A DNA stretch of 23,275 nucleotides from a virus, in IMG/VR virus record IMGVR_UViG_3300044619_001552, positions 1 to 23,275 of that record; one strand, 5' to 3'. Position numbers and translations under genes: made by a program. The notes beneath the pieces were generated by a model. That model was not told the DNA's origin and ran no database searches. It was given only the letters and a program-made list of their open reading frames with translations. Within the stretch, counting starts at the first letter, position 1, and every line of letters begins with the position of its first letter. Shown in pieces: positions 2,701 to 22,796 of this stretch.

Positions 2701-3285
2701 ATGGCAGTAACAACTTCCAATATCGTGGTTGGTGAAGCAACAGTAAAAACTGGTGTTTCCAACATTACGATGACAAACTCAGATTTTGATAGCTTGACAG
2801 ATGTCGGTGCGACCCAAGGTGGTCTTGAAATTTCGTGGGAGCCAGACATGGTTGACATTGAAATCGACCAGTACGGTGATGCCGCAAAAGTCATTCAGTC
2901 AAAGGTGAAAGTAATGGTTAAGACAACCCTTGCAGAAGGAACTCTTAACAACCTTGCAACAGCATGGAGCTATGACAATACTGACGGTGGAGCAGACATT
3001 AAAGCAAACCTCGCCGGCTCAGGCGCAAACACAAAAACTTTCTTGTTTGGTTCACAAAGTGTGTATCCATTCGAGTACGCGCTGCAGGTCACGGGCAATG
3101 CCCCTGGCTCAACAGCTTCGGTTACAAAGACACGCAAGTTTAACACTAAGCGAGCAGTCTCTATGACCACTTCGATGATCTCGATGAAGAGAGCTGAAGC
3201 AACTGTGTTTGAAGTATCGTTCCGTATCCTGCCAGTAACTGAGGATACAGGCTACGAATACGGCAAGATTATTGATCAGCAATAA
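2701..3285 (+). CDS. Major tail (tube) protein
   Basis: This 194-residue protein has the properties of a siphovirus tube subunit: acidic to neutral, strand-rich, Thr/Val/Ser-rich and without helices of note. The segment DVGATQGGLEISWEPDMVDI followed by a stretch on the dependence of the tube sheet (IDQYGDAAKVIQSKVKVMVK) is typical of this family, as is the closing strand region (VFEVSFRILPVTEDTG). Subunits stack as rings around the tape measure to form the tail tube. It has the best ribosome site in the tail module, AGGAGG at about 2688-2693 before the ATG. A strong intrinsic terminator follows the stop, as expected for the most abundant tail product. Confidence 0.8.
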   Translation: MAVTTSNIVVGEATVKTGVSNITMTNSDFDSLTDVGATQGGLEISWEPDMVDIEIDQYGDAAKVIQSKVKVMVKTTLAEGTLNNLATAWSYDNTDGGADIKANLAGSGANTKTFLFGSQSVYPFEYALQVTGNAPGSTASVTKTRKFNTKRAVSMTTSMISMKRAEATVFEVSFRILPVTEDTGYEYGKIIDQQ

Positions 3286-3311
3286 TTAACACCAAAAATT
3301 TGTACTAACGG

Positions 3312-3357
3312 AAAACTCTCAGGCAACAGTATGATATACTGAAGTCTGGGAGTTTTT
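3312..3357 (+). terminator. Intrinsic terminator after the major tail protein gene
   Basis: AAAACTCTCAG (3312-3322) pairs with CTGGGAGTTTT (3346-3356) with one G-T pair. Two further pairs follow (3323:3345 wobble and 3324:3344), then an AA/AA internal loop, then a perfect inner stem CAGTAT (3327-3332) with ATACTG (3336-3341) around the loop GAT. Five T residues (3353-3357) close it. The A-tract and T-tract could also allow termination from the opposite strand. Its place right after the tube gene suggests it lowers transcription into the chaperone and tape measure genes. Confidence 0.8.
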
Positions 3358-3358
3358 C

Positions 3359-3364
3359 TATAAT
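3359..3364 (+). promoter_or_regulatory. -10 promoter-like box (TATAAT) downstream of the terminator
   Basis: A perfect TATAAT starts two bases after the terminator T-tract. A start near 3371 would give a leader of about 26 bases containing the ribosome site AAGGAG (3381-3386), ten bases before the ATG at 3397. No TGn extension and no clear -35 box are present; the upstream T-tract could act as an UP-like or melting-prone segment. It would restart transcription for tail assembly genes. Confidence 0.45.
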
Positions 3365-3396
3365 CCCTAAGACTATTTATAAGGAGTATTACAAAA

Positions 3397-3711
3397 ATGA
3401 CAACAAATGCAGATCTGTTCAAGGGAACTGAAATTACTTTTTCTGATGGGAAAACGAGAATTGTTAAGCCTTTGACAATCAAGCACCTTCGTGAATTTAT
3501 GAAGGTTGCTAACGAAATGAAGACGGACAACGATGCTGGAATGACTGACGAGGACATTGATAAGATGATTATGGCAGCATCAATTGCACTTCGTAAGTGT
3601 GACCCAGAATTGGCAGCAGACCGTGATGCTCTTGAAGATGTTCTTGATTTGAGAACCTTTGGTGAAGTCATGGCAGCCGCTATGGGGTCTGATCCAAACC
3701 CAAACCTCTAG
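3397..3711 (+). CDS. Tail assembly chaperone G (unshifted product)
   Basis: This 104-residue protein is the short product of the tail chaperone pair, equivalent to lambda gpG. It has an N-terminal strand part (GTEITFSDGKTRIVKPLTIK) and a helical body (HLREFMKVANEMKTD, DEDIDKMIMAASIAL), ending in ALEDVLDLRTFGEVMAAAMG and a short Pro/Asn tail. It sits directly between the tube and tape measure genes, the normal place. G-type proteins coat the tape measure and recruit tube subunits and are absent from the mature virion. The ribosome site is AAGGAG at 3381-3386. A slippery sequence at its end produces the longer G-T form. Confidence 0.8.
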   Translation: MTTNADLFKGTEITFSDGKTRIVKPLTIKHLREFMKVANEMKTDNDAGMTDEDIDKMIMAASIALRKCDPELAADRDALEDVLDLRTFGEVMAAAMGSDPNPNL

Positions 3712-4034
3712 GCGGGGACTCTGGTGGTGACGAACCACTATCTTGGAATGAAATCCCCCTTCTAAAATATGAATCGGAAATATTTGTTCAAACCGGGGCA
3801 TGGAAAAGCATTGAGGAATTAGAAGAATCGTTGATTCTTCATGAAATGTTTTTATTGTACCGTGCTTGCTCTAATGAGTTTAGTAAGAATATAAAAGCCG
3901 CTGCCCTTGCTCAAGGAGCAGATGTTGACTTTGAAGATGACTGGTATGACAATCAGGAGCGCACTCCTGCTGACCCTATGCGTCCATTTGAGGTTATGAA
4001 CTTTGGTATTCCATTGGGTTATGCACAAGAATGA
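3397..4034 (+). CDS. Tail assembly chaperone G-T (programmed -1 frameshift product)
   Basis: A -1 shift at 3699-3705 joins G to an open frame that runs to TGA 4032-4034, giving about 212 residues: 103 from G plus 109 from T. The T part reads on from PLGGDSGGDEPLSWNEIPLL and includes the helical SIEELEESLILHEMFLLYRA and an acidic middle (GADVDFEDDWYDNQ). There is no ATG in the T frame until 3843, well inside the conserved-looking region, so T has no convincing start of its own. A TGA at 3690-3692 in the T frame and the G stop at 3709-3711 confine the shift to a window of about 16 bases that contains the slippery site. G-T binds the tape measure through T in the lambda model. Confidence 0.8.
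3699..3705 (+). promoter_or_regulatory. -1 ribosomal frameshift slippery site CCCAAAC
   Basis: The heptamer C-CCA-AAC is in the G frame and fits X-XXY-YYZ exactly, so both tRNAs can re-pair as CCC and AAA. It lies four bases before the G stop codon. A short hairpin GTGGT (3724-3728) with ACCAC (3734-3738) lies 18 bases downstream; this is farther than usual for a stimulator, so the stop codon and other RNA structure may contribute. Confidence 0.8.
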
Positions 4035-4082: not shown

Positions 4083-7000
4083 ATGTCTGATGTTGATCTC
4101 ATAATTAGTGTACATACAACAGGCGCTAAGGATATTGCCAATCTTAGCGCCTCTGTTCGCAACCTTGCTTTAGGAATTAAGGGTGTAACTGTGCCTATGC
4201 GGGCACTGGATACGCATACTCGGGCTGTTAATAAAGCTCTTGGTATCACTAATCGTGGTGTTGCTCAACATGCTAATAGTTTAAAAGAATTAAAGAAAAA
4301 TCAGGCTGCTCTTTCTGAAGAGTCAAAGAGGCTTCGCTCCAATATTCAGAGCTATAATTCTGCGATAGTAAGAGCTGGTGGTCCTACCACAAAACTTGGT
4401 CAGGAGCTGTCAAAGACTCAGAATGATCTTAAATCTTTTTCAAACACCCTTCGTGGTCTTAGGATTAGATCTTTTGGATCCGACCTAGGCAATATTTCTC
4501 TGAAATTGCAAAAGATGGGTAAGGATGCCCAATTTGTTGGTCGAAGCTTGATGATCAACTTGACTGCCCCGATCACATTGTTCGGAAGATTGGGTCTTCA
4601 GAGCTTAACTAAAGTCGATGGTGCTTTAGTCCGTCTTACCAAGGTTTTAGAAGATGTTGCCATGGATGCGGAGCAAGCTAGTTCTAAACTTGGCGGGGTG
4701 GGTGATCCACGACAAGTAGAGAAAATGATTGCAGCCTTTAATGTACTTGATCGCAGTCTTACAGGGGTCAGTAATAAATTTGGTGTTTCTAAAGATCTTG
4801 TTGTTAGCATAGCATCTGATTTTGCAGAACTTGGTATTACTACTAGTGAAAATATTGTTCAACTCACTACTTTAACTGCGAGTCTTGAAAAGCTTGGGTC
4901 AATGGATATTTCTGCAGCTCAGGATCTGACTCAGGCACTTTATTTTCAATCAAAAAGAGCACTTACGGCTTCTGGGGCACTCGATAAATTAAGTACTTCA
5001 AGAGAAAGAGAAACTCGTACAATAGCGGCAGCTACAGCCCAAGCATACTTGTTTAACTCTATTGAGAACGCTACTGCTCTTACATTGAAAGATGTTGCCG
5101 ATACACTCCCTGAACTTGGCGGTATGGCAGTTAGCTTTGGATTGTCAATGACAGAAGCAGCAGCTTTGCTTGCTCCGATGAAAGCTGCTGGTTTGGATGT
5201 TGGCGCATCCGCTAACTCAATTAAAGTTTCTCTTCAAAGAGCAATTAGTCCAACTAAGCAAAATATTGAATTAATAGCAAGCCTGGCTCAGAAATACGGT
5301 GTAGCAGATGATGCTACTAGTGCATTCAATAAAACTACGAAAACTGGTTTAACTGGTTTGCAAGCTATTGTTGATATTTTTGGCGAAGTTCGAGATTCTG
5401 CTGCGGGCCAAGAGGGTGCTCTCAAATTAATGTCTGACCTGTTTGAGAAGCGTCAGGGTCCAAGAATGTATATTGCGATTGAGCAGTTAAATCAATTTGA
5501 TAAAGCATTGAGTAACCTCAGTGCGACTGGTGCTGGTACATCTGAAAGAATTCTTGCGTCAGTCGCTGAAACAGCAATCAAGGGTTTCAATGAGCTTAAT
5601 GGAACAGCTCTTCCTGAAACAATTCGCCAGTTTAGCGATATTGGAATTATCGCCCGCATCGCTACAGCAACAGTCGGTCAGGTAGTAGAGGGGTTCAAAG
5701 GAGCTGGGCTTAAAGGGGTAGTTACTGAGGCAGAAATTAAGACTGCTAGAGAAGCTAGGAAGGCAGTATCTGATTTAATTTTAACAAAACAGCAAAATGA
5801 AGGTATAAACCTTATTGACGGCGCACAAACTGAAGCCGCAAAAACAATGCTTGTTGAACTGGCTGGTGCATCTAACGCCGGTGAGGTTGCAAATAGAGAA
5901 TTAGAACAATCACTTAGAGCTCTTGATGTCACGATTGGAAGAATTAAAAACGCTTTCAAACTTTTTGCAGGTGATTTGATGAAGGTTCTTAAACCTACAT
6001 TGGAAGCTATCGCTGATAAAATTACTGAACTCTATGATAAATGGGAAAAATTATCTGCTGAGACCAAAAAGAATATTTCAAGAATAGTCGTATTTGTTCT
6101 CGGGTTTCTTGCCGTACTTGGCCCAGTAGTTCTTGCTCTTGGTACTCTCCAAGCATCTATGGGCGTTTTAGGTAGAGCTTTTACAGTCTTTCTCCCTAAG
6201 TTATTAAAAAATTCAGATGGGTTCATTGGCCTGGGGGAATCAGCTTCTATAGCTAAGGGTAAAATTGAAGGTCTGTATAAATCCGTTAGTGAAAAGAATC
6301 TAACTAGAGCGCTACTTGGAATGACTGATGGAACTGAATTTGATGCGCTCGCTGACAAATTAATTCCTTCATCTTCGTCCCCTAGAGCGATGCCGAAGGT
6401 GCCGTTCCCAGATTTAGTCGTTCCCCCAGCGGCTCCTGCAGCGATAGCAGCTCCAACTAGGGTTCTTCCTAGCTCTGTCAAAACAGGGGCGGATCTTGAT
6501 AAGTTAATTAGATTAGAGCAGAGAAAAATGCTCTCTCACTTTGATCCAACAGATGTCGGCATAGCTCGTGGGACATTGAGAGGTCCGGGGGGTAGATTCC
6601 TGCCAGCGACTGCTGGTTCAAGAGCTGTAAGTGCAGTCATGGCTCCTGGTGGTGGTGCTGATTTTGCAGCAGCAGAAGCTACGCTGTTTGCAAGATTGGA
6701 AGCAGCCAAGGCTGCTTCTCATGCAAAAGACTTGGCTGCTCAAGAAGTACTCCATGCTAAAAAACTTGCAGATATTGCTGCAGAAAATGCAGCAAAAATG
6801 GCTGGGTATAATTCCCAGGTTGCACAGCAAACAATTTTTCATAATCAAAATTTAGCGCAAGATGCAAAACTCGCTGCTAATGCAAAGAAGAGGCAGATAC
6901 TTGAAAGCGCAGGGGTAACAAGTCGTTTGAGGAGAGATCCGAGTGGCAAGCCAGTTATCCAGAGAGTGTTTAGAGGTGTTGATGTAACGGATGACCAAGC

Positions 7001-10000
7001 GGGAAGGCTCGCAACAAGTAGATCCCCAATACTTAGAACAAGGCTTGCGCTTCAAAAGTTTAGACAAGATATTCCAACTTCAAAACCTGTAAATATGGGT
7101 AAAGGTTTTGTAGAAGCTTTAAGACCGATTAAGCAATTTAAACTAGGTGTGGCTGGTGCTGGTGCTGCAACTGATGCACTGCGGGCAAAAAATGCTTTAC
7201 TTGGCATGAGCGCCCCTGGTCAATTCAAAACAATGGCAACAGCCATGGGCGGATTCACCAGGAATGTAAAACTTGCAACTTCGGCAATGAAGATCATGAG
7301 ACTTGTTATGATCAGCACCGGTATTGGTGTCATCATACTTGGCATTGGTCTCGCTATAATGCTTGTTGTAAAAAACTTCAGCACTTTTAAAGAAAAATCT
7401 TCTGGTGCTATTAATAGTGTTAAGCAAGCCTTTAAGACATTCATGAGCGCACTTAAAGAGATTGCAAGACCAATTTTGGATCTGTTTAAAAGCTTTGATG
7501 ATGGTGGTGCAAAAGGTAAGAGTGCTATTGGTGGTTTGTCTAAAGCATTTGGAGGTATTGCTAAGGCTATAAGTTTTGTAGCAGATTTGTTTAAGAAATT
7601 TGTTCTCAATTTCATTCAGCCGTATCTTTATTACATCGTAAACCTTGTAATGGTTGTTGTTTCAATTTTTCAAGGTAATTGGGGTAACGCTCTCGACTTC
7701 TTAATATCAGCATTTTCTCATGTAGGAAAGATCATAGTTGTAATAATGAAATTTGCGTTTAAAGCGCTAGTTGCGGTAGCCGCTCTTGCAATTAAGGGAA
7801 TACTTACATCGATAACTTTAATTCCAAAAACTTTGGCAAAAGCTGCGGGCTTCCTTGGTAAATTTATACCAGGCTTTACTGCAATCTCCGAGGGTATCAA
7901 TTCTGTCGTAGATGGCATGTTCGGGATGGTTGATGGCGCTAAAAACCTTGCTATGGGCGCTATTGATGGAGTAGCTGATGCAATAGGTTCAAAGCTAGAA
8001 AGCGGAGCGAAGAAAGGTATCTCCAATACTAAGGAAGCAGTAGACCTTGGCGGAAAAAAGATTGTAGATTCTGGTGAAGAAATAGGTTATGATACTGGCG
8101 AAGCGATTGCGAATGCAGCAGGTGATGGCTATGATGATAATGACCCTAGCGAGAAGATTGGTAAAGCACTTAAAGACGGTATTGACGATGCCGTTCAAGA
8201 ACTGCAGGATTATGTAGCTGGTGAGCTAAAGAATGCAATTGATAAATATGTAAATGCATCAATAAAAGCATTAGAAAAACAGAAAACATCTGCTCTTAAG
8301 GTTTTTGATGTCCAATTAAAGACTCTCATGAAGCTTGAAAAGGCCGAAGAGTCTTTAACTAAAACTAAAGAGTATGAAGCTAACAAGCGTAAATTAATTG
8401 ATGACAAGGCTCTCAGCGATGAACAATACCGCCGCAACTATGCACTGGCAGTATACGAAGGTCGCATTGATGATGCCAGAATGCTTCAGCTTGAGCAGAG
8501 CGCTAGTGAAAAGAATTATAGTGAAAACTTAAAAGGTATTGAGTCGGACAGAGCCAAGGATCTTGCTAAAGAAAATCTTGAGGCTCTTAAAGAGGCTATT
8601 AACGAAGCAAAAGATGCGGCTTCTGTATTCTTTGATGAAGCTATTGAGAAATTCCAAGAGTCTATTGAAGTAATTACAAAGTTCCCTCCAGTAACAATTG
8701 AGGATTATAGAAATCAAATTGAACAGCTTTACACTATTACTAATGATACTGCTGCTGCAAATAGTGAAGCATTTGAAAAAATGTTTACTGATTTTGCATC
8801 TACAATTAATGACAAGATGCCTAATGAGGTTGTTGGGGCTTTCACTACAAATCTTGATGACCTTGTTCGTGTTGCAAGAGAGAAGTATGGTTTAGGCGGG
8901 GAAGCTGGCGAAGATACTATCATTGGAGCAACCATTGGCATGCTCGCAGATATTGGCGGGACATTTGGTGATGGTAAGCAAGTTGTTATTGATAAGTTTG
9001 GTGAAGTCACAACTGGGTTTAAAAATAATTTTGCGGCGGCAAGTACTGCCATTGTTAAGTCTGTTACTGATGATTTCTTAACTCCATTTGCTGAAGCAAC
9101 AACTAAATTTAGAGAAAATTGGAACAATGTGTATGTTCAAGCAATTAAAGATGGAAACCAAGCAATCACAGATAGCTTAAGAAATAATGTTAAAATTAAT
9201 GAAGAATTATTTAAAAAGTTGCGTGGTGAGCTTACTGAAACAAGTCTGTACTGGCTAAATCTTAAGGCTGCAGCAGACGCTGCAGCTGATGCGCAGTCTG
9301 CTGCATCTGGAGGAGGCGGAGTTGATAGTCCTACCTCTATTACCCCTAAAGGTTCTTTCACCCCTGCTGGTGGTCGGGCTGATGCATTTGAAAACAATAA
9401 TAGAAATAGGGTGGACAGGGGTCTTCCTCCAATATCTTATCAAGAATTTATTTCGGGCACTGGTCGGTCTACATCTCAACTTCAAATAATAAGAAATCCT
9501 ATTAGGCAGTTTGCTAAAGGCGGCATGGTCCCTTCGGGAAGCGTAAATCAAAATTTTGGGATGCCAGAAGGTTACATCTCAGCGCCAAGACAAGAAGGCG
9601 TACCAACACTTCTTCATGGCGGAGAGTACATTCTTAATGCGAAGGCGGTTTCCAGAATTGGTATAGGCGCTTTGAATAAGATGAATAATAATCTTCTTCC
9701 AAAATTTGCAAAGGGCGGTCAAGTTCCAGGCGGGAAGAGGGGTTCTGCTTCAAACACAAGAGGTAGCGCAGATAGACTTGAAGCGAGCAACCTAGCAAGA
9801 ATTTCAAAAGCTCAAAACCAAAGAAACGCTGATTTGAAAAATGTTGGTATTGCTAAAAACTTTATTGGCCCAATAGCGCCAGTCGTCAAGTCAGAGAGTA
9901 AGAGTATTTTAGGCAAGATTGGTAGCTTTGCTAGAGAGATGGCAAAGCCAAGCAATTCTTTTGCAATGATCGGCGCTGCAATTGGAACAGCGCTGGGTGG

Positions 10001-12167
10001 GCTAGGCGGTTTTGGATTTGGCGCTGTCCCAGGCGGTATCGGTGGAGCTGCTATCGGTGGTGCTATTGGTACATTTACTGAACAATCTTTTGACAAGGTA
10101 AAGGGCTTCCAACCGCTTGCCATTGCTAAGAATGCAGTAATGCAAGGAGTATTCCAAGCTGCTGGTATAGGTGTTGCTAAATATGTTGCTCCTTTGTTAA
10201 AGCCATCCTCTTTAAAACTGATGCTCCAATCTAAATTTCCAGGTGTTGGTTCATATCTTTCTGGCACAGTAGGTCGTTTGTTTGGGAAATCCGCAACCAG
10301 TGAAGTTGCAGATGTTGCGCTCAGAACAATACCTCTTCCTAAATTTCAGTCAGCACTTCCTGCTGGTTCTAGACCATTTGGAGCTCTTATGCAAGGAAAA
10401 GCTCCAGAGGCTGTAGAAAGTATTGCGGCTAAGGTTGAGGAGTTGGCTAGGATTAATGGGGCAATACCATTGCCAAGACCAGCCCCGACAGGACCACTGC
10501 CGACAGTGAATCTTTCCAATTACTTACTTCATGGCGGTCCAGCAACTGAGCAGTTACTTGGTGGTAAATTAAACCCCGAATTTATTAGAGGTGGAAAGCT
10601 CTGGAATGTTCTTAAGTCTGCCAGACTTGGAGGAAGTATTGGAAGGTCTAGCATGGATGAACCGTCTGTTTTGACAGGCAGTGAACTAGGTCAGAATCAG
10701 GACATTATAGAGTTATATAAAAAAATTATTTCTATTGCTAATAATGCAAATAAATATTCTGCTGATGATTATGTTCCATTAGCACTGAAAAGCGGCAGCG
10801 GCAGCGAAGTAGTTAGCGGGATACCATATTACTACGACTCGGCTAGGGGTAATGCTTTTTACCGATGGGGTGATCAGGTTAAAGCTGCTAAAAACTGGTT
10901 GATTGAGAATGCTGATATTGTTAAGAGAACCTTGAAGGGAGAATCTCATATGACAGGCGTATTTCCTTCATATGGTAGCCATACTTATGATCAGCATGGC
11001 GCAACTCATTTACTAAAAATTCCAGATAGCTTGAACTCAATTGCTGGGGAGTATCCACTCAGAGACATATTTTCTCTTCCTTCTCAAGAGATCCCTTTTT
11101 GGGGGATGCATACACCAATTGCATCTCTTCCTAAAGGTAGCCAGGTAATTGGTAATGATGTACAGACATGGTATAAAAAATTTTTCCCATTGATTGAAGC
11201 AATGATTGATGATGCGAATAAAACATTAAGCCCTACAGACCTAGCAGCTTTTGCTCTTTCTCAAAAAGCTTATGGTAACACCATAACTCCAGCTGCTAGA
11301 AGCTATATTATTTCCGAATTTAATAATAATGCATATAGGCTATATAATCGTGAGGCAATCCCTGCAATGGTTAAACAGCTTCAAATGGCTACATCAAAAG
11401 AGGAGATGTTGCAGATTGTAAGCAATGGGACTAGAATCATGACTGGCTCTGAGTATCAGATGAGTCCTGTTGAATTAGCGATTGATCAACTCAAAGGAAC
11501 AATTTCTCACTTTGCACCTAGACCACTTTCATTAGCAGGTAATGCTGCAACAGGTAACATTTTGAATAACATTATACAGTCTGGGACTGATGCTGCGATG
11601 TACGGTGTTGCAGACAAAGTTGGAAGTATCACATATGGAGAAGCGATATCTTCAGCACGAGATACGGCATTCCTGAACTCTCTACCAGAGCAGTCTCGCC
11701 AATTATTTATTGATGCTATGCATGGAGATGCTGTTAACCGTAGTCTTAAACTACTGCCAGATTTGCCAGATGTAGATATGACCATTAACAAGCTTAAAGG
11801 GCTTCCTGGTTTCAAAACAGGTGGCTATGTTCCTGGTTCTCCTTCAATGGCAATTCCTGCACTCCTGCATGGCGGTGAGTATGTTGTAAATGCTGATGCT
11901 GTAAGAAACATGGGTGTAAGAACAATGCAAAGCATTAACCAATCCAAGTTCAGAACCCCATCTAGCGCCCCATCCTATATGGGTGGAGGACAAACAACGA
12001 ATGTGTCTACGGTAAATATTAATGTTGATACATTTGTCGGGGAAGAAGAATGGTTTAAGTCTATGATGAAGAGTTACAATGTCAATGTCCTTCCAAAGCA
12101 ACAGAAAGCGGCTGGGATGGAGACAAGAACTTTTACAAGCTATAATGGTATAAACCAGGGGTTGTAA
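4083..12167 (+). CDS. Tail tape measure protein (2694 aa)
   Basis: By far the longest gene, placed after the chaperones, it sets tail length and enters the cell with the DNA. Residues about 180-390 match the TP901-type tape measure domain (FGVSKDLVVSIASDFAELGI, ADTLPELGGMAVSFGLSMTE, MKAAGLDVGASANSIKVSLQ). Hydrophobic candidate membrane segments lie at about 666-693, 1071-1099 and 1177-1247. A charged coiled coil spans about 1381-1512. A Gly-rich motif ending in LLHGGEYILNAKAV occurs at about 1810-1871 and again as LLHGGEYVVNADAV at about 2577-2621. Between them lie a Gly/Ala hydrophobic hairpin (about 1960-1998) and a non-repetitive region of about 570 residues. At 0.15 nm per residue the whole protein would span about 400 nm, but if the insertion is globular the tail would be shorter. 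No peptidase or lysozyme motif was recognised. Confidence 0.9.
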   Translation: MSDVDLIISVHTTGAKDIANLSASVRNLALGIKGVTVPMRALDTHTRAVNKALGITNRGVAQHANSLKELKKNQAALSEESKRLRSNIQSYNSAIVRAGGPTTKLGQELSKTQNDLKSFSNTLRGLRIRSFGSDLGNISLKLQKMGKDAQFVGRSLMINLTAPITLFGRLGLQSLTKVDGALVRLTKVLEDVAMDAEQASSKLGGVGDPRQVEKMIAAFNVLDRSLTGVSNKFGVSKDLVVSIASDFAELGITTSENIVQLTTLTASLEKLGSMDISAAQDLTQALYFQSKRALTASGALDKLSTSRERETRTIAAATAQAYLFNSIENATALTLKDVADTLPELGGMAVSFGLSMTEAAALLAPMKAAGLDVGASANSIKVSLQRAISPTKQNIELIASLAQKYGVADDATSAFNKTTKTGLTGLQAIVDIFGEVRDSAAGQEGALKLMSDLFEKRQGPRMYIAIEQLNQFDKALSNLSATGAGTSERILASVAETAIKGFNELNGTALPETIRQFSDIGIIARIATATVGQVVEGFKGAGLKGVVTEAEIKTAREARKAVSDLILTKQQNEGINLIDGAQTEAAKTMLVELAGASNAGEVANRELEQSLRALDVTIGRIKNAFKLFAGDLMKVLKPTLEAIADKITELYDKWEKLSAETKKNISRIVVFVLGFLAVLGPVVLALGTLQASMGVLGRAFTVFLPKLLKNSDGFIGLGESASIAKGKIEGLYKSVSEKNLTRALLGMTDGTEFDALADKLIPSSSSPRAMPKVPFPDLVVPPAAPAAIAAPTRVLPSSVKTGADLDKLIRLEQRKMLSHFDPTDVGIARGTLRGPGGRFLPATAGSRAVSAVMAPGGGADFAAAEATLFARLEAAKAASHAKDLAAQEVLHAKKLADIAAENAAKMAGYNSQVAQQTIFHNQNLAQDAKLAANAKKRQILESAGVTSRLRRDPSGKPVIQRVFRGVDVTDDQAGRLATSRSPILRTRLALQKFRQDIPTSKPVNMGKGFVEALRPIKQFKLGVAGAGAATDALRAKNALLGMSAPGQFKTMATAMGGFTRNVKLATSAMKIMRLVMISTGIGVIILGIGLAIMLVVKNFSTFKEKSSGAINSVKQAFKTFMSALKEIARPILDLFKSFDDGGAKGKSAIGGLSKAFGGIAKAISFVADLFKKFVLNFIQPYLYYIVNLVMVVVSIFQGNWGNALDFLISAFSHVGKIIVVIMKFAFKALVAVAALAIKGILTSITLIPKTLAKAAGFLGKFIPGFTAISEGINSVVDGMFGMVDGAKNLAMGAIDGVADAIGSKLESGAKKGISNTKEAVDLGGKKIVDSGEEIGYDTGEAIANAAGDGYDDNDPSEKIGKALKDGIDDAVQELQDYVAGELKNAIDKYVNASIKALEKQKTSALKVFDVQLKTLMKLEKAEESLTKTKEYEANKRKLIDDKALSDEQYRRNYALAVYEGRIDDARMLQLEQSASEKNYSENLKGIESDRAKDLAKENLEALKEAINEAKDAASVFFDEAIEKFQESIEVITKFPPVTIEDYRNQIEQLYTITNDTAAANSEAFEKMFTDFASTINDKMPNEVVGAFTTNLDDLVRVAREKYGLGGEAGEDTIIGATIGMLADIGGTFGDGKQVVIDKFGEVTTGFKNNFAAASTAIVKSVTDDFLTPFAEATTKFRENWNNVYVQAIKDGNQAITDSLRNNVKINEELFKKLRGELTETSLYWLNLKAAADAAADAQSAASGGGGVDSPTSITPKGSFTPAGGRADAFENNNRNRVDRGLPPISYQEFISGTGRSTSQLQIIRNPIRQFAKGGMVPSGSVNQNFGMPEGYISAPRQEGVPTLLHGGEYILNAKAVSRIGIGALNKMNNNLLPKFAKGGQVPGGKRGSASNTRGSADRLEASNLARISKAQNQRNADLKNVGIAKNFIGPIAPVVKSESKSILGKIGSFAREMAKPSNSFAMIGAAIGTALGGLGGFGFGAVPGGIGGAAIGGAIGTFTEQSFDKVKGFQPLAIAKNAVMQGVFQAAGIGVAKYVAPLLKPSSLKLMLQSKFPGVGSYLSGTVGRLFGKSATSEVADVALRTIPLPKFQSALPAGSRPFGALMQGKAPEAVESIAAKVEELARINGAIPLPRPAPTGPLPTVNLSNYLLHGGPATEQLLGGKLNPEFIRGGKLWNVLKSARLGGSIGRSSMDEPSVLTGSELGQNQDIIELYKKIISIANNANKYSADDYVPLALKSGSGSEVVSGIPYYYDSARGNAFYRWGDQVKAAKNWLIENADIVKRTLKGESHMTGVFPSYGSHTYDQHGATHLLKIPDSLNSIAGEYPLRDIFSLPSQEIPFWGMHTPIASLPKGSQVIGNDVQTWYKKFFPLIEAMIDDANKTLSPTDLAAFALSQKAYGNTITPAARSYIISEFNNNAYRLYNREAIPAMVKQLQMATSKEEMLQIVSNGTRIMTGSEYQMSPVELAIDQLKGTISHFAPRPLSLAGNAATGNILNNIIQSGTDAAMYGVADKVGSITYGEAISSARDTAFLNSLPEQSRQLFIDAMHGDAVNRSLKLLPDLPDVDMTINKLKGLPGFKTGGYVPGSPSMAIPALLHGGEYVVNADAVRNMGVRTMQSINQSKFRTPSSAPSYMGGGQTTNVSTVNINVDTFVGEEEWFKSMMKSYNVNVLPKQQKAAGMETRTFTSYNGINQGL
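9510..9695 (+). repeat. Tape-measure Gly-rich motif, copy 1
   Basis: Encodes residues about 1810-1871 with the pattern FAKGGMVPSG, GVPTLLHGGEYILNAKAV and a following IGIGALNKMN. A further short echo, FAKGGQVPGG, follows at about 9702. The same pattern returns at 11811-11945. The motif is widespread in tape measure proteins (GGxVPG ... VPAxLxxGEYVxNxxAV). The two copies bracket the large insertion. Confidence 0.7.
11811..11945 (+). repeat. Tape-measure Gly-rich motif, copy 2
   Basis: Encodes residues about 2577-2621: FKTGGYVPGSPSMAIPALL, then HGGEYVVNADAVRNMGVRTM. It aligns with copy 1 over roughly 45 residues with the same core HGGEY(I/V)(L/V)NA(K/D)AV. DNA identity is clearly lower than protein similarity, so this is an old duplication or convergent use of a family motif. 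Confidence 0.7.
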
Positions 12168-20013: not shown

Positions 20014-20448
20014 TTGAAAGAAGTAAGGCTTGCCTCTCAAAGAAAAGATATTGAGTGGACAACGAAATTTGCTTCTGGTGAAGATAGTCCTAATTACAAT
20101 GGCGGAAAGTATATCGATGATAAAGGTTATGTTCGTGTATTGAAGCCTGAGCACCCTAAAAACATTAGAGGCTATGCTTACGAACATCGGCTGGTTATGG
20201 AAGAATATTTGAATAGATATCTCCAAGCATGGGAGACTGTTCACCATATTAATGAAATAAAGGTAGATAATAGATTGTCTAACTTGTTTCTTTGTACTCC
20301 GCAAGAGCATAGTGCCCTGCATAAGGAAGGTAATAAGATATCGGCTCAGCATCGGGCTAAAATGAGAGAAACGGCTAACAAAGTTAAACCTCATACAAGA
20401 AAGAAAAATGCTGTTAATCCTGTAACAATTAAAAAAAGACTCCCGTAG
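20014..20448 (+). CDS. HNH endonuclease, free-standing
   Basis: This 144-residue protein has a complete HNH core: YEHRLVMEEYLNRYL, then ETVHHINEIKVDNRLSNLFL (H77-H78, N86, N90), then CTPQEHSALH (H99, H103). The N-terminal GEDSPNYNGGKYIDDKGYVR segment with a strand pair is typical of phage HNH homing-like enzymes, and the basic C-terminus (about 110-144) may bind DNA. The enzyme would nick or cut DNA in a metal-dependent way. The best start is TTG at 20014, directly after the previous TAA; no ATG precedes the conserved part. It sits at the border between late and early modules, a common place for mobile endonuclease genes. Confidence 0.85.
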   Translation: MKEVRLASQRKDIEWTTKFASGEDSPNYNGGKYIDDKGYVRVLKPEHPKNIRGYAYEHRLVMEEYLNRYLQAWETVHHINEIKVDNRLSNLFLCTPQEHSALHKEGNKISAQHRAKMRETANKVKPHTRKKNAVNPVTIKKRLP

Positions 20449-22300: not shown

Positions 22301-22513
22301 ATGTCAAAAGAAAATGAAAAAGGTACAGAAATTTGGGCATCACTCGGCATTACTAAGAATCTTGGTAACTACGAGTCGTTGAGACTAGATGCTGGCGCAC
22401 GAACGCAGGCATCAGACCCTAATGACCCAGCGGCTTGGGCAAAAGTTTGGGAATCTATTGATGCTCAAATTGAAGCAAAGCTGCAGGAATTAGATAATGA
22501 AAGCCCTAAGTGA
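22301..22513 (+). CDS. Small conserved-looking phage protein of unknown function
   Basis: This 70-residue acidic protein has a central segment LGNYESLRLDAGARTQASD followed by an amphipathic helix (AAWAKVWESIDAQIEAKLQE). The pattern NLGNYESLRxDxG is one I associate with small early proteins of actinophages, but I cannot name a function. GAGG (22292-22295) is the ribosome site, overlapping the previous stop. It overlaps the WhiB-like gene by 17 bases. Single-strand DNA or replisome contacts are possible in view of the neighbours; this is speculation. Confidence 0.65.
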   Translation: MSKENEKGTEIWASLGITKNLGNYESLRLDAGARTQASDPNDPAAWAKVWESIDAQIEAKLQELDNESPK

Positions 22514-22796
22514 TTGGCTGAATTTAGCAGTTTGTGCAAATGATGACAACCCTACTGCTTGGCTATCGTATGATATTGAAAACATACGATATGCCAAGCA
22601 CGGCTGTTCGAAATGTAAAGTTAGGCAGCAATGTTTTTTAAATGCATGGCAGAATGAACCATATGTTGGTGTCAATGCAGGCATATCAGAATATGATTTT
22701 TTAATCCTTACATGGAAGGAGGCGAAGAAGGCTAATGGAAGTAACTGGTCAAGAACTAATAAAACACTTCAAAGAATCATGCAGGAAATTAAATAA
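22497..22796 (+). CDS. WhiB-like iron-sulfur transcription factor
   Basis: This 99-residue protein shows the four-Cys WhiB pattern: C13 after LSDWLNLAV, and CSKCKVRQQC with C37-x2-C40-x5-C46. The following GVNAGIS sits where the family has the G(V/I)WGG turn, and a basic C-terminus (KKANGSNWSRTNKTLQRIM) takes the place of the AT-hook-like tail. WhiB proteins hold a [4Fe-4S] cluster and bind the host primary sigma factor; phage members can alter host or phage transcription. The family is confined essentially to actinobacteria and their phages, so this is the best host marker. AGGA (22485-22488) lies about eight bases upstream of the ATG. It overlaps both neighbours. Confidence 0.8.
   Translation: MKALSDWLNLAVCANDDNPTAWLSYDIENIRYAKHGCSKCKVRQQCFLNAWQNEPYVGVNAGISEYDFLILTWKEAKKANGSNWSRTNKTLQRIMQEIK

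Follow-up and report, generated by a model that had tools for sequence, protein, structure and literature searches.

A putative terminator and promoter nested in one hairpin between the tail-tube and chaperone genes of a phage group

Where does transcription of the tail-tube gene end, and where does transcription of the following genes begin, in a tail module in which the two are separated by a short intergenic stretch? The window, by which we mean the whole stretch of DNA analysed, is a single viral record, 23,275 bases long, that carries such a module (Table 1). The initial annotation had read the region as a cassette of a terminator, a promoter behind it and a ribosome-binding site, which would insulate tube expression and reset transcription for the genes downstream. 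Comparison with relatives places the promoter elsewhere, in the top of the terminator hairpin. We consider it probable (roughly 0.78) that the element is a nested terminator-promoter, which would end tail-tube transcription and restart the next unit, usually the chaperones and the tape measure gene.

Table 1. Coordinates of the features discussed (window positions unless a locus is named).
Feature	Position	Strand	Basis and remarks
Major tail (tube) protein gene	2701..3285	+	ORF; its transcription unit is predicted to end at the hairpin
5′ arm of terminator hairpin, with upstream A-run	3310..3324	+	fold, z −8.1
Putative promoter core, hairpin top (inner stem and loop)	3330..3340	+	TRTG 3330-3333, spacer A 3334, −10 TATACT 3335-3340
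3′ arm of hairpin	3344..3358	+	fold; also holds predicted +1 (~3347)
T-run (T5) of terminator	3353..3357	+	sequence
TATAAT named by the initial annotation	3359..3364	+	two bases after the 13-bp stem; probably chance
AAGGAG ribosome-binding site of first chaperone gene	3381..3386	+	sequence; ten bases upstream of ATG 3397
Tail assembly chaperone, first frame	3397..3711	+	ORF; PHROG 10504 4.7e-11, no function named
Tape measure protein gene	4083..12167	+	2694-aa ORF; downstream, would lie in the restarted unit
WhiB-type regulator gene	22497-22796		Pfam PF02467
Adenylylsulphate-kinase-like gene, 248 aa	L061:4631-5377; L224:2141-2887; L226:2141-2887		Pfam PF01583

The hairpin and the genes around it

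The product of the gene upstream of the hairpin matched two families, PHROG 2175 (1.9e-22), which is labelled "protein with Ig domain", and PHROG 885 (2.9e-6), the major tail protein, and showed about 32–39% identity to the products of Streptomyces phage genes, many of which are annotated as major tail protein. The first open reading frame downstream occupies the position of genes annotated as tail assembly chaperone in Streptomyces phages, and the first 400 residues of the tape measure frame matched PHROG 10030 (tape measure, 3.6e-22). At the end of the first chaperone frame there is a slippery heptamer, CCCAAAC (3699-3705), and an open −1 frame runs from 3693 to 4034; together these fit the usual chaperone frameshift. 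CCCAAAC or CCCAAAT was also found near the end of the chaperone frame in 40 of 68 distinct relatives. The named relatives are recorded as phages of Streptomyces (127), Rhodococcus (5) and Microbacterium (2), and from these hosts and the WhiB-type regulator gene we infer that the host of the window phage is actinobacterial. An HNH endonuclease gene (Pfam HNH_3) at 20014-20448, in the tail region, is likely to be a homing gene.

Behind the major tail gene, AAAACTCTCAGGC (3312-3324) pairs with GTCTGGGAGTTTT (3344-3356) over 13 base pairs, two of which are G–U. Counting 3310-3311 with 3357-3358, the outer stem has 15 pairs and the whole hairpin spans 3310-3358. Within it lies an inner stem of six pairs, CAGTAT/ATACTG (3327-3332/3336-3341), with a three-base loop. 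The hairpin of the window is far beyond chance: a 58-nt piece folded at −27.0 kcal/mol, compared with −8.6±2.3 kcal/mol for 200 dinucleotide shuffles (z −8.1), none of which was as stable. Two sequence features of an intrinsic terminator are thus present, a stable hairpin containing G and C and a U-run directly after it. The nested 13-bp and 6-bp stems with a T-tract, as first described, are borne out in the window, and so is the ribosome-binding site of the cassette. The inner stem, on the other hand, is not conserved as such: in relatives the hairpin closes in other registers around the same motif; in L068 it does so with a six-base loop, TATAAT.

Simple scans had not listed the hairpin: the terminator scan allows loops of 3–8 bases, and the scan for DNA inverted repeats does not accept G–U pairs. 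A search of Rfam at gathering scores gave no match in the window, and the element therefore corresponds to no known regulatory RNA family there; a tRNA search gave no lead on it.

Conservation of the hairpin and of the motif in its top

Relatives were collected from IMG/VR with the major tail protein as the query, the best 80 of 212 related loci having 71–100% identity. The first set comprised 80 loci, including the window and without L022, and yielded 41 distinct stretches behind the major tail gene, each of which contained a hairpin of about −24 to −32 kcal/mol with TGnTAnnnT inside. Two further searches brought the sample to 69 distinct sequences from 128 loci in 125 records, including the window; one of these searches contributed the best 80 of 163, and the sample leans to closer relatives. 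Loci of this later search on contigs that the first had already sampled were not used a second time, apart from the repeats L123, L130 and L213, which were kept among the 128 loci and which are why the number of records is 125, and L022 and L152, which are cut before the intergenic region, were excluded from the counts.

A hairpin enclosing the promoter motif was present in every one of the 69 distinct sequences, with lineage representatives folding at −23.6 to −35.8 kcal/mol. Automatic scoring classified 66 of them as a T-run hairpin with a nested motif, and at least four T in some six-base window behind the motif were found in 68. In L218 and L225 the nested hairpin and the motif are present, and the T-run that adjoins the stem is poor. 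In L223, the roughly 160 bases after the major tail gene, which ends at 2076, hold a strong separate terminator without a promoter and, after it, a second long hairpin that encloses TATGATATACT and has no good T-run. The poor T-runs of L218, L225 and L223 suggest that termination may not be the only job of the hairpin.

The same letters, TATGATATACT, form the putative promoter core of the window, and TRTGnTAnnnT was found at this site in 69 of 69 distinct sequences of the phage group. TRTG at −17 to −14 is described as a Gram-positive extension of the −10 element in the available text of a review of such promoters (PMC2613000). The motif-aligned letters are T-R-T-G-n-T-A-(T/A)-A-(C/A)-T, where the invariance of TG, TA and the final T is partly by construction, these five letters being the anchor of the search; T and R at −17/−16 lie outside the anchor and were present in 68 of 68. 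The chief −10 hexamers among the 69 sequences were TATACT (26), TAAACT (19), TATAAT (6) and TAAAAT (5). Outside the motif, information was mostly below 0.5 bit, with the exception of A-rich positions 26–27 bases upstream, runs of G on the 3′ side and the T-run. Across the aligned relatives there was no conserved −35 hexamer 16–18 bases upstream of the −10, a place that is occupied by the diverged 5′ arm. The predicted transcription start was set by rule, seven bases after the −10 hexamer. The distance from the end of the −10 to the T-run was 10–22 bases in 68 of the 69 sequences.

According to a statement quoted in the same review, there are no clear "pure" extended −10 promoters that lack both a −35 and an activator site, with galP1 given as an example without recognisable −35 homology (PMC2613000); the loop promoter may therefore need an activator. 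The WhiB-type regulator is a candidate for this role. In addition, among 68 distinct relatives, 22 have GTAC, often as TTGTACC/T, 5′ of the hairpin, compared with 8.4 expected by shuffling (3302-3305 in the window). This box sits 21–32 bases before the TG of the motif and could be an activator site.

The two arms of the hairpin change together. They form 22 lineages in 68 sequences, or 23 with L223. When folded with their own partners, the arms gave a mean of −28.0 kcal/mol, compared with −14.0±0.9 kcal/mol after permutation of partners among the 22 lineages, and only 3 of 462 single partner swaps were as stable as the own pair (L150 and L223 were outside these permutations). In the 10 lineages with at least three members, 771 of 824 pair cells were standard and 42 two-sided changes were seen, whereas slid controls on the same lineages gave 302–497 paired cells and 4–10 two-sided changes. 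The arms contain 127 G–U pairs and 4 C–A mismatches. In 66 of 69 sequences, and in all 23 lineage representatives, the sense strand gave the more stable fold, which in the window reached −27.0 kcal/mol against −16.7 to −19.0 kcal/mol for the antisense fold, depending on the piece folded; these differences have to be read with the caution that the folding program favours G–U, and that the sense fold is also the better one for 120 of 153 other hairpins from the same contigs. The excess of G–U over C–A and the more stable sense fold suggest that the arms are kept as sense RNA. Seen across the alignment, the arms look constrained as sense RNA and the hairpin top as DNA.

The combination is specific to this site. 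In six contigs of relatives (90–109 kb), TRTGnTAnnnT occurred in 6 of 237 hairpins with a T-run that reached −18 kcal/mol, counted on both strands so that one repeat may count twice; every contig had a single one, located behind the tail gene. Of the other 231, 6 contained the looser TGnTAnnnT. Four of the six contigs also had the stricter TRTGnTAWAHT at other intergenic places, six in all, and at one of these places (G004:54954) GGAG and ATG follow and a strong hairpin is lacking, as in an ordinary promoter. Separately, TATGCTAAACT lies in another inverted repeat without a T-run at G002:12840 (minus strand, locus L082), in a stretch rich in strong hairpins. Many strong hairpins with common motifs also occur in L105 (G005:1-9000) and at some other contig ends; among the recurring motifs are AACGTTAG in L105 and GTAACTTT in L082 and L099.

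Tandem relatives and known systems

A group of Streptomyces phages, mostly Stanwilliamsviridae (Evy, StarPlatinum, Coruscant, Circinus and Beuffert; also Byblos), shares the flanking genes with the window and likewise has a terminator hairpin at the boundary, together with a promoter in most cases. In Evy, StarPlatinum and Coruscant a compact terminator is followed by TTGGAT, 16 bases and TATAAT, with TGn ending the spacer (spacing judged by eye). In these phages the terminator and the promoter are separate, whereas in the group of the window the promoter core lies in the hairpin top and no −35 is conserved. The order of terminator and then promoter, which had been proposed for the window, is therefore the one found in the Streptomyces phages. 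Among 19 distinct tandem sequences (22 loci, automatic scoring), the motif lay 16–33 bases downstream of the hairpin, except in L251, where it abuts. TATAAT is present and TG is missing in Circinus and Byblos, and no TGnTAnnnT was found at the tail-tube/chaperone boundary of Beuffert or of the more distant OscarSo and KimJongPhill.

A tree of the major tail proteins with a midpoint root had 88 tips, one of the 89 proteins being too short. The 20 tandem or motif-less tips formed one group (support 1.0), and the 67 nested tips and L223 formed the other (0.90). This split and the two layouts indicate that the pair of signals is common to both groups and that nesting separates them. The nested layout does not appear to be explained by compactness. 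The gap from gene to gene was 82–113 bases in 65 of the 67 nested sequences in which it could be measured, 57 and 64 bases in two with an inserted kinase gene, and 94–120 bases in six Streptomyces phages with the tandem layout (L219 had no chaperone start by the rule used here). We rejected space saving as a sufficient reason for nesting, because the nested and tandem gap lengths overlap and little or nothing is saved.

Close association of a terminator with a promoter is already known. In the frd/ampC overlap of E. coli, one hairpin and one promoter serve two adjacent units, as we propose for the window; unlike in the window, the promoter lies in the upstream gene, the hairpin behind it is both terminator and attenuator, and the two are not nested.

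Among phages, Staphylococcus phage vB_SauM-515A1 (Kayvirus) has promoter p98 right after terminator t97, and its early promoters carry a TRTGN extension (PMC7698491). It resembles the window in that a terminator adjoins a promoter before a structural gene and in the extension; it differs in that the promoter follows the terminator, and the accessible part of the report does not describe the two as nested. In the T7-like phage LUZ100, a strong terminator stands right behind the major capsid gene and cuts off a major structural transcript, as is predicted for the window, but the capsid gene is served by a local promoter of the phage polymerase that lies outside the terminator, as far as the available text describes it (PMC10134795). 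The virion polymerase of phage N4 uses hairpin promoters whose extrusion depends on gyrase (PMC4496689). There, too, promoter information lies within a hairpin; it is a DNA hairpin read by a phage polymerase, whereas the window shows a sense-RNA constraint and a motif of the cellular sigma type.

In the open-access literature, with subscription papers mostly outside its range and the sources represented in part, we found no promoter core that a phage clade keeps within the top of a terminator. Searches on phiC31 early promoters and on Stanwilliamsviridae promoters turned up nothing describing such an element, and the accessible texts on Mycoplasma, Zymomonas and AbiF described nothing of the nested kind.

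Proposed mechanism and competing readings

We propose that the RNA of the tail-tube gene, which would contain both arms, folds into the hairpin and ends at the T-run. As DNA, the hairpin top would act as an extended −10 promoter of the housekeeping-sigma type without a recognisable −35. New transcripts would begin inside the 3′ arm and continue through the genes that follow (the chaperones and the tape measure gene in the window); because the predicted start lies in the 3′ arm and the 5′ arm is missing, such a transcript could not form the terminator. As a result, the tail-tube mRNA would be cut off, and the next unit would be driven at its own, separately set rate. The insulation and reset first proposed for this region are thus plausible in view of the two signals that relatives keep, although the promoter had been misplaced.

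If this interpretation is correct, one stretch of about 50 bases appears to be both terminator and promoter, parts that are usually treated as separate, and the two constraints are visibly separated in evolution, with arms that covary as RNA and a top that seems fixed as DNA. If active, the element would be a minimal part for insulating and restarting transcription. The natural division of the phages into tandem and nested groups allows a direct in vivo test of the role of terminator–promoter distance in polymerase recycling. Moreover, such an element can escape both a terminator scan limited to short loops and a promoter scan that requires a −35, as happened here.

Two further proposals would add to the nested terminator-promoter rather than replace it. 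In the first, which we regard as rather unlikely but which is compatible with it, the 3′ arm pairs with the bases that follow the T-run, and the resulting second hairpin caps the 5′ end of the new transcript, for stability or escape. Such a hairpin starts no more than five bases from the predicted 5′ end in 40 of the 41 distinct sequences, L061 being the exception, and it folded with its own partners at −7.18 kcal/mol, compared with −5.37±0.40 kcal/mol after permutation among 21 lineages (0 of 5000; L218 and L223 were outside the second-hairpin tests). This co-change signal is ambiguous, because these bases can also be read as lengthening the main stem (−29.49 against −28.07±0.35 kcal/mol, 1 of 5000). 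Compared with dinucleotide shuffles, the second hairpin had a mean z of −1.1, with 20 of 41 sequences below −1 and the window at +0.1, and in L076, L080, L135 and L144 the 3′ arm pairs only within the T-run boundary.

The second proposal is an extension of the nested terminator-promoter, in which the terminated polymerase remains bound to the DNA and starts again at the loop promoter, a few bases upstream, so that downstream expression would keep a fixed ratio to tail-tube traffic. A precedent comes from post-termination recycling in vitro, where, in the available text, release of RNA precedes release of polymerase in 94% of the cases studied, and polymerase that retains sigma diffuses and re-initiates at nearby promoters, which according to the authors had not yet been seen in vivo (PMC6978380). 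The overlap of terminator and promoter, in a layout that saves little or no space, is also in line with such a hand-off. However, the tandem relatives, L251 excepted, manage with the spacing given above between hairpin and motif, and a terminating polymerase could equally block the promoter; we consider the hand-off unlikely. The stronger claim, that nesting is a dedicated device which delivers sigma-bearing polymerase to the loop promoter and makes the next unit proportional to completed tail-tube transcripts, builds on this in vitro recycling and seems to us quite unlikely. If true, it would be a natural, conserved system selected for post-termination re-initiation.

The loop might instead be conserved as RNA, in a hairpin for protein binding, processing or antitermination whose loop letters are read in the transcript. 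The sense-RNA constraint on the arms is consistent with this possibility, as is the retention of the hairpin in L218, L225 and L223 despite their poor T-runs. On the other hand, the conserved letters are those of an extended −10, with the usual freedom at hexamer positions three to five. The TRTGnTAWAHT sites elsewhere in the contigs, including the one without a strong hairpin, argue against a role confined to an RNA loop, and tandem relatives have TGnTATAAT outside the terminator hairpin. Given also the lack of an Rfam match in the window, we find this reading very doubtful.

A promoter separate from the hairpin, as the initial annotation had it, would consist of the TATAAT two bases after the 13-bp stem, with a start near 3371. 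The hexamer is indeed present and perfect, and the tandem order is that of the Streptomyces relatives. However, among the 69 distinct sequences it is found at this place once, in that of the window itself (7 of 128 loci), and no TRTGnTAnnnT follows the T-run in any of the 69. The two strands of the window together hold 38 copies of TATAAT, compared with 23.5±5.3 in shuffles, and a single occurrence is not beyond chance. A promoter scan that asks for a −35 lists neither this hexamer nor the loop promoter. We therefore rejected the downstream TATAAT as the promoter, an ordinary terminator followed by it being highly improbable; the conserved element within the hairpin moves the predicted start upstream to the 3′ arm.

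A cruciform promoter, in which supercoiling would drive extrusion of the hairpin so that the −10 letters are exposed, as in phage N4 (PMC4496689), would suit promoter letters in the top of a long inverted repeat and the hairpin kept in L223 beside another terminator, but we rejected it as scarcely credible, because G–U pairs, which are mismatches in DNA, are common in the arms (127 against 4 C–A), the antisense fold is the weaker in 66 of 69 sequences and in all 23 lineage representatives, and the motif is of the cellular sigma factor type.

In three relatives, L061, L224 and L226, the adenylylsulphate-kinase-like gene (PF01583, 6.5e-21 in L061 and 1.5e-20 in L224) sits between the nested element and the chaperone gene. 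Because it lies directly behind the element, the restarted unit would begin with the kinase-like gene in these phages. Between this gene and the chaperone, L224 and L226 have a second hairpin (about −30 kcal/mol), whose loop contains TGTGATATAAT, and L061 has the motif without a strong hairpin (−9.7 kcal/mol). L223 is the sister of L224 on the tail-protein tree (0.997) and has no kinase-like gene between tail gene and chaperone; its second hairpin is similar by eye to that of L224, and gain or loss of the gene would explain its odd layout. The ATG of the kinase-like gene stands close behind the T-run, and the only visible candidate for its ribosome-binding site is GAGG of the 3′ arm, which, lying within that arm, would be accessible only in RNA initiated within the loop.
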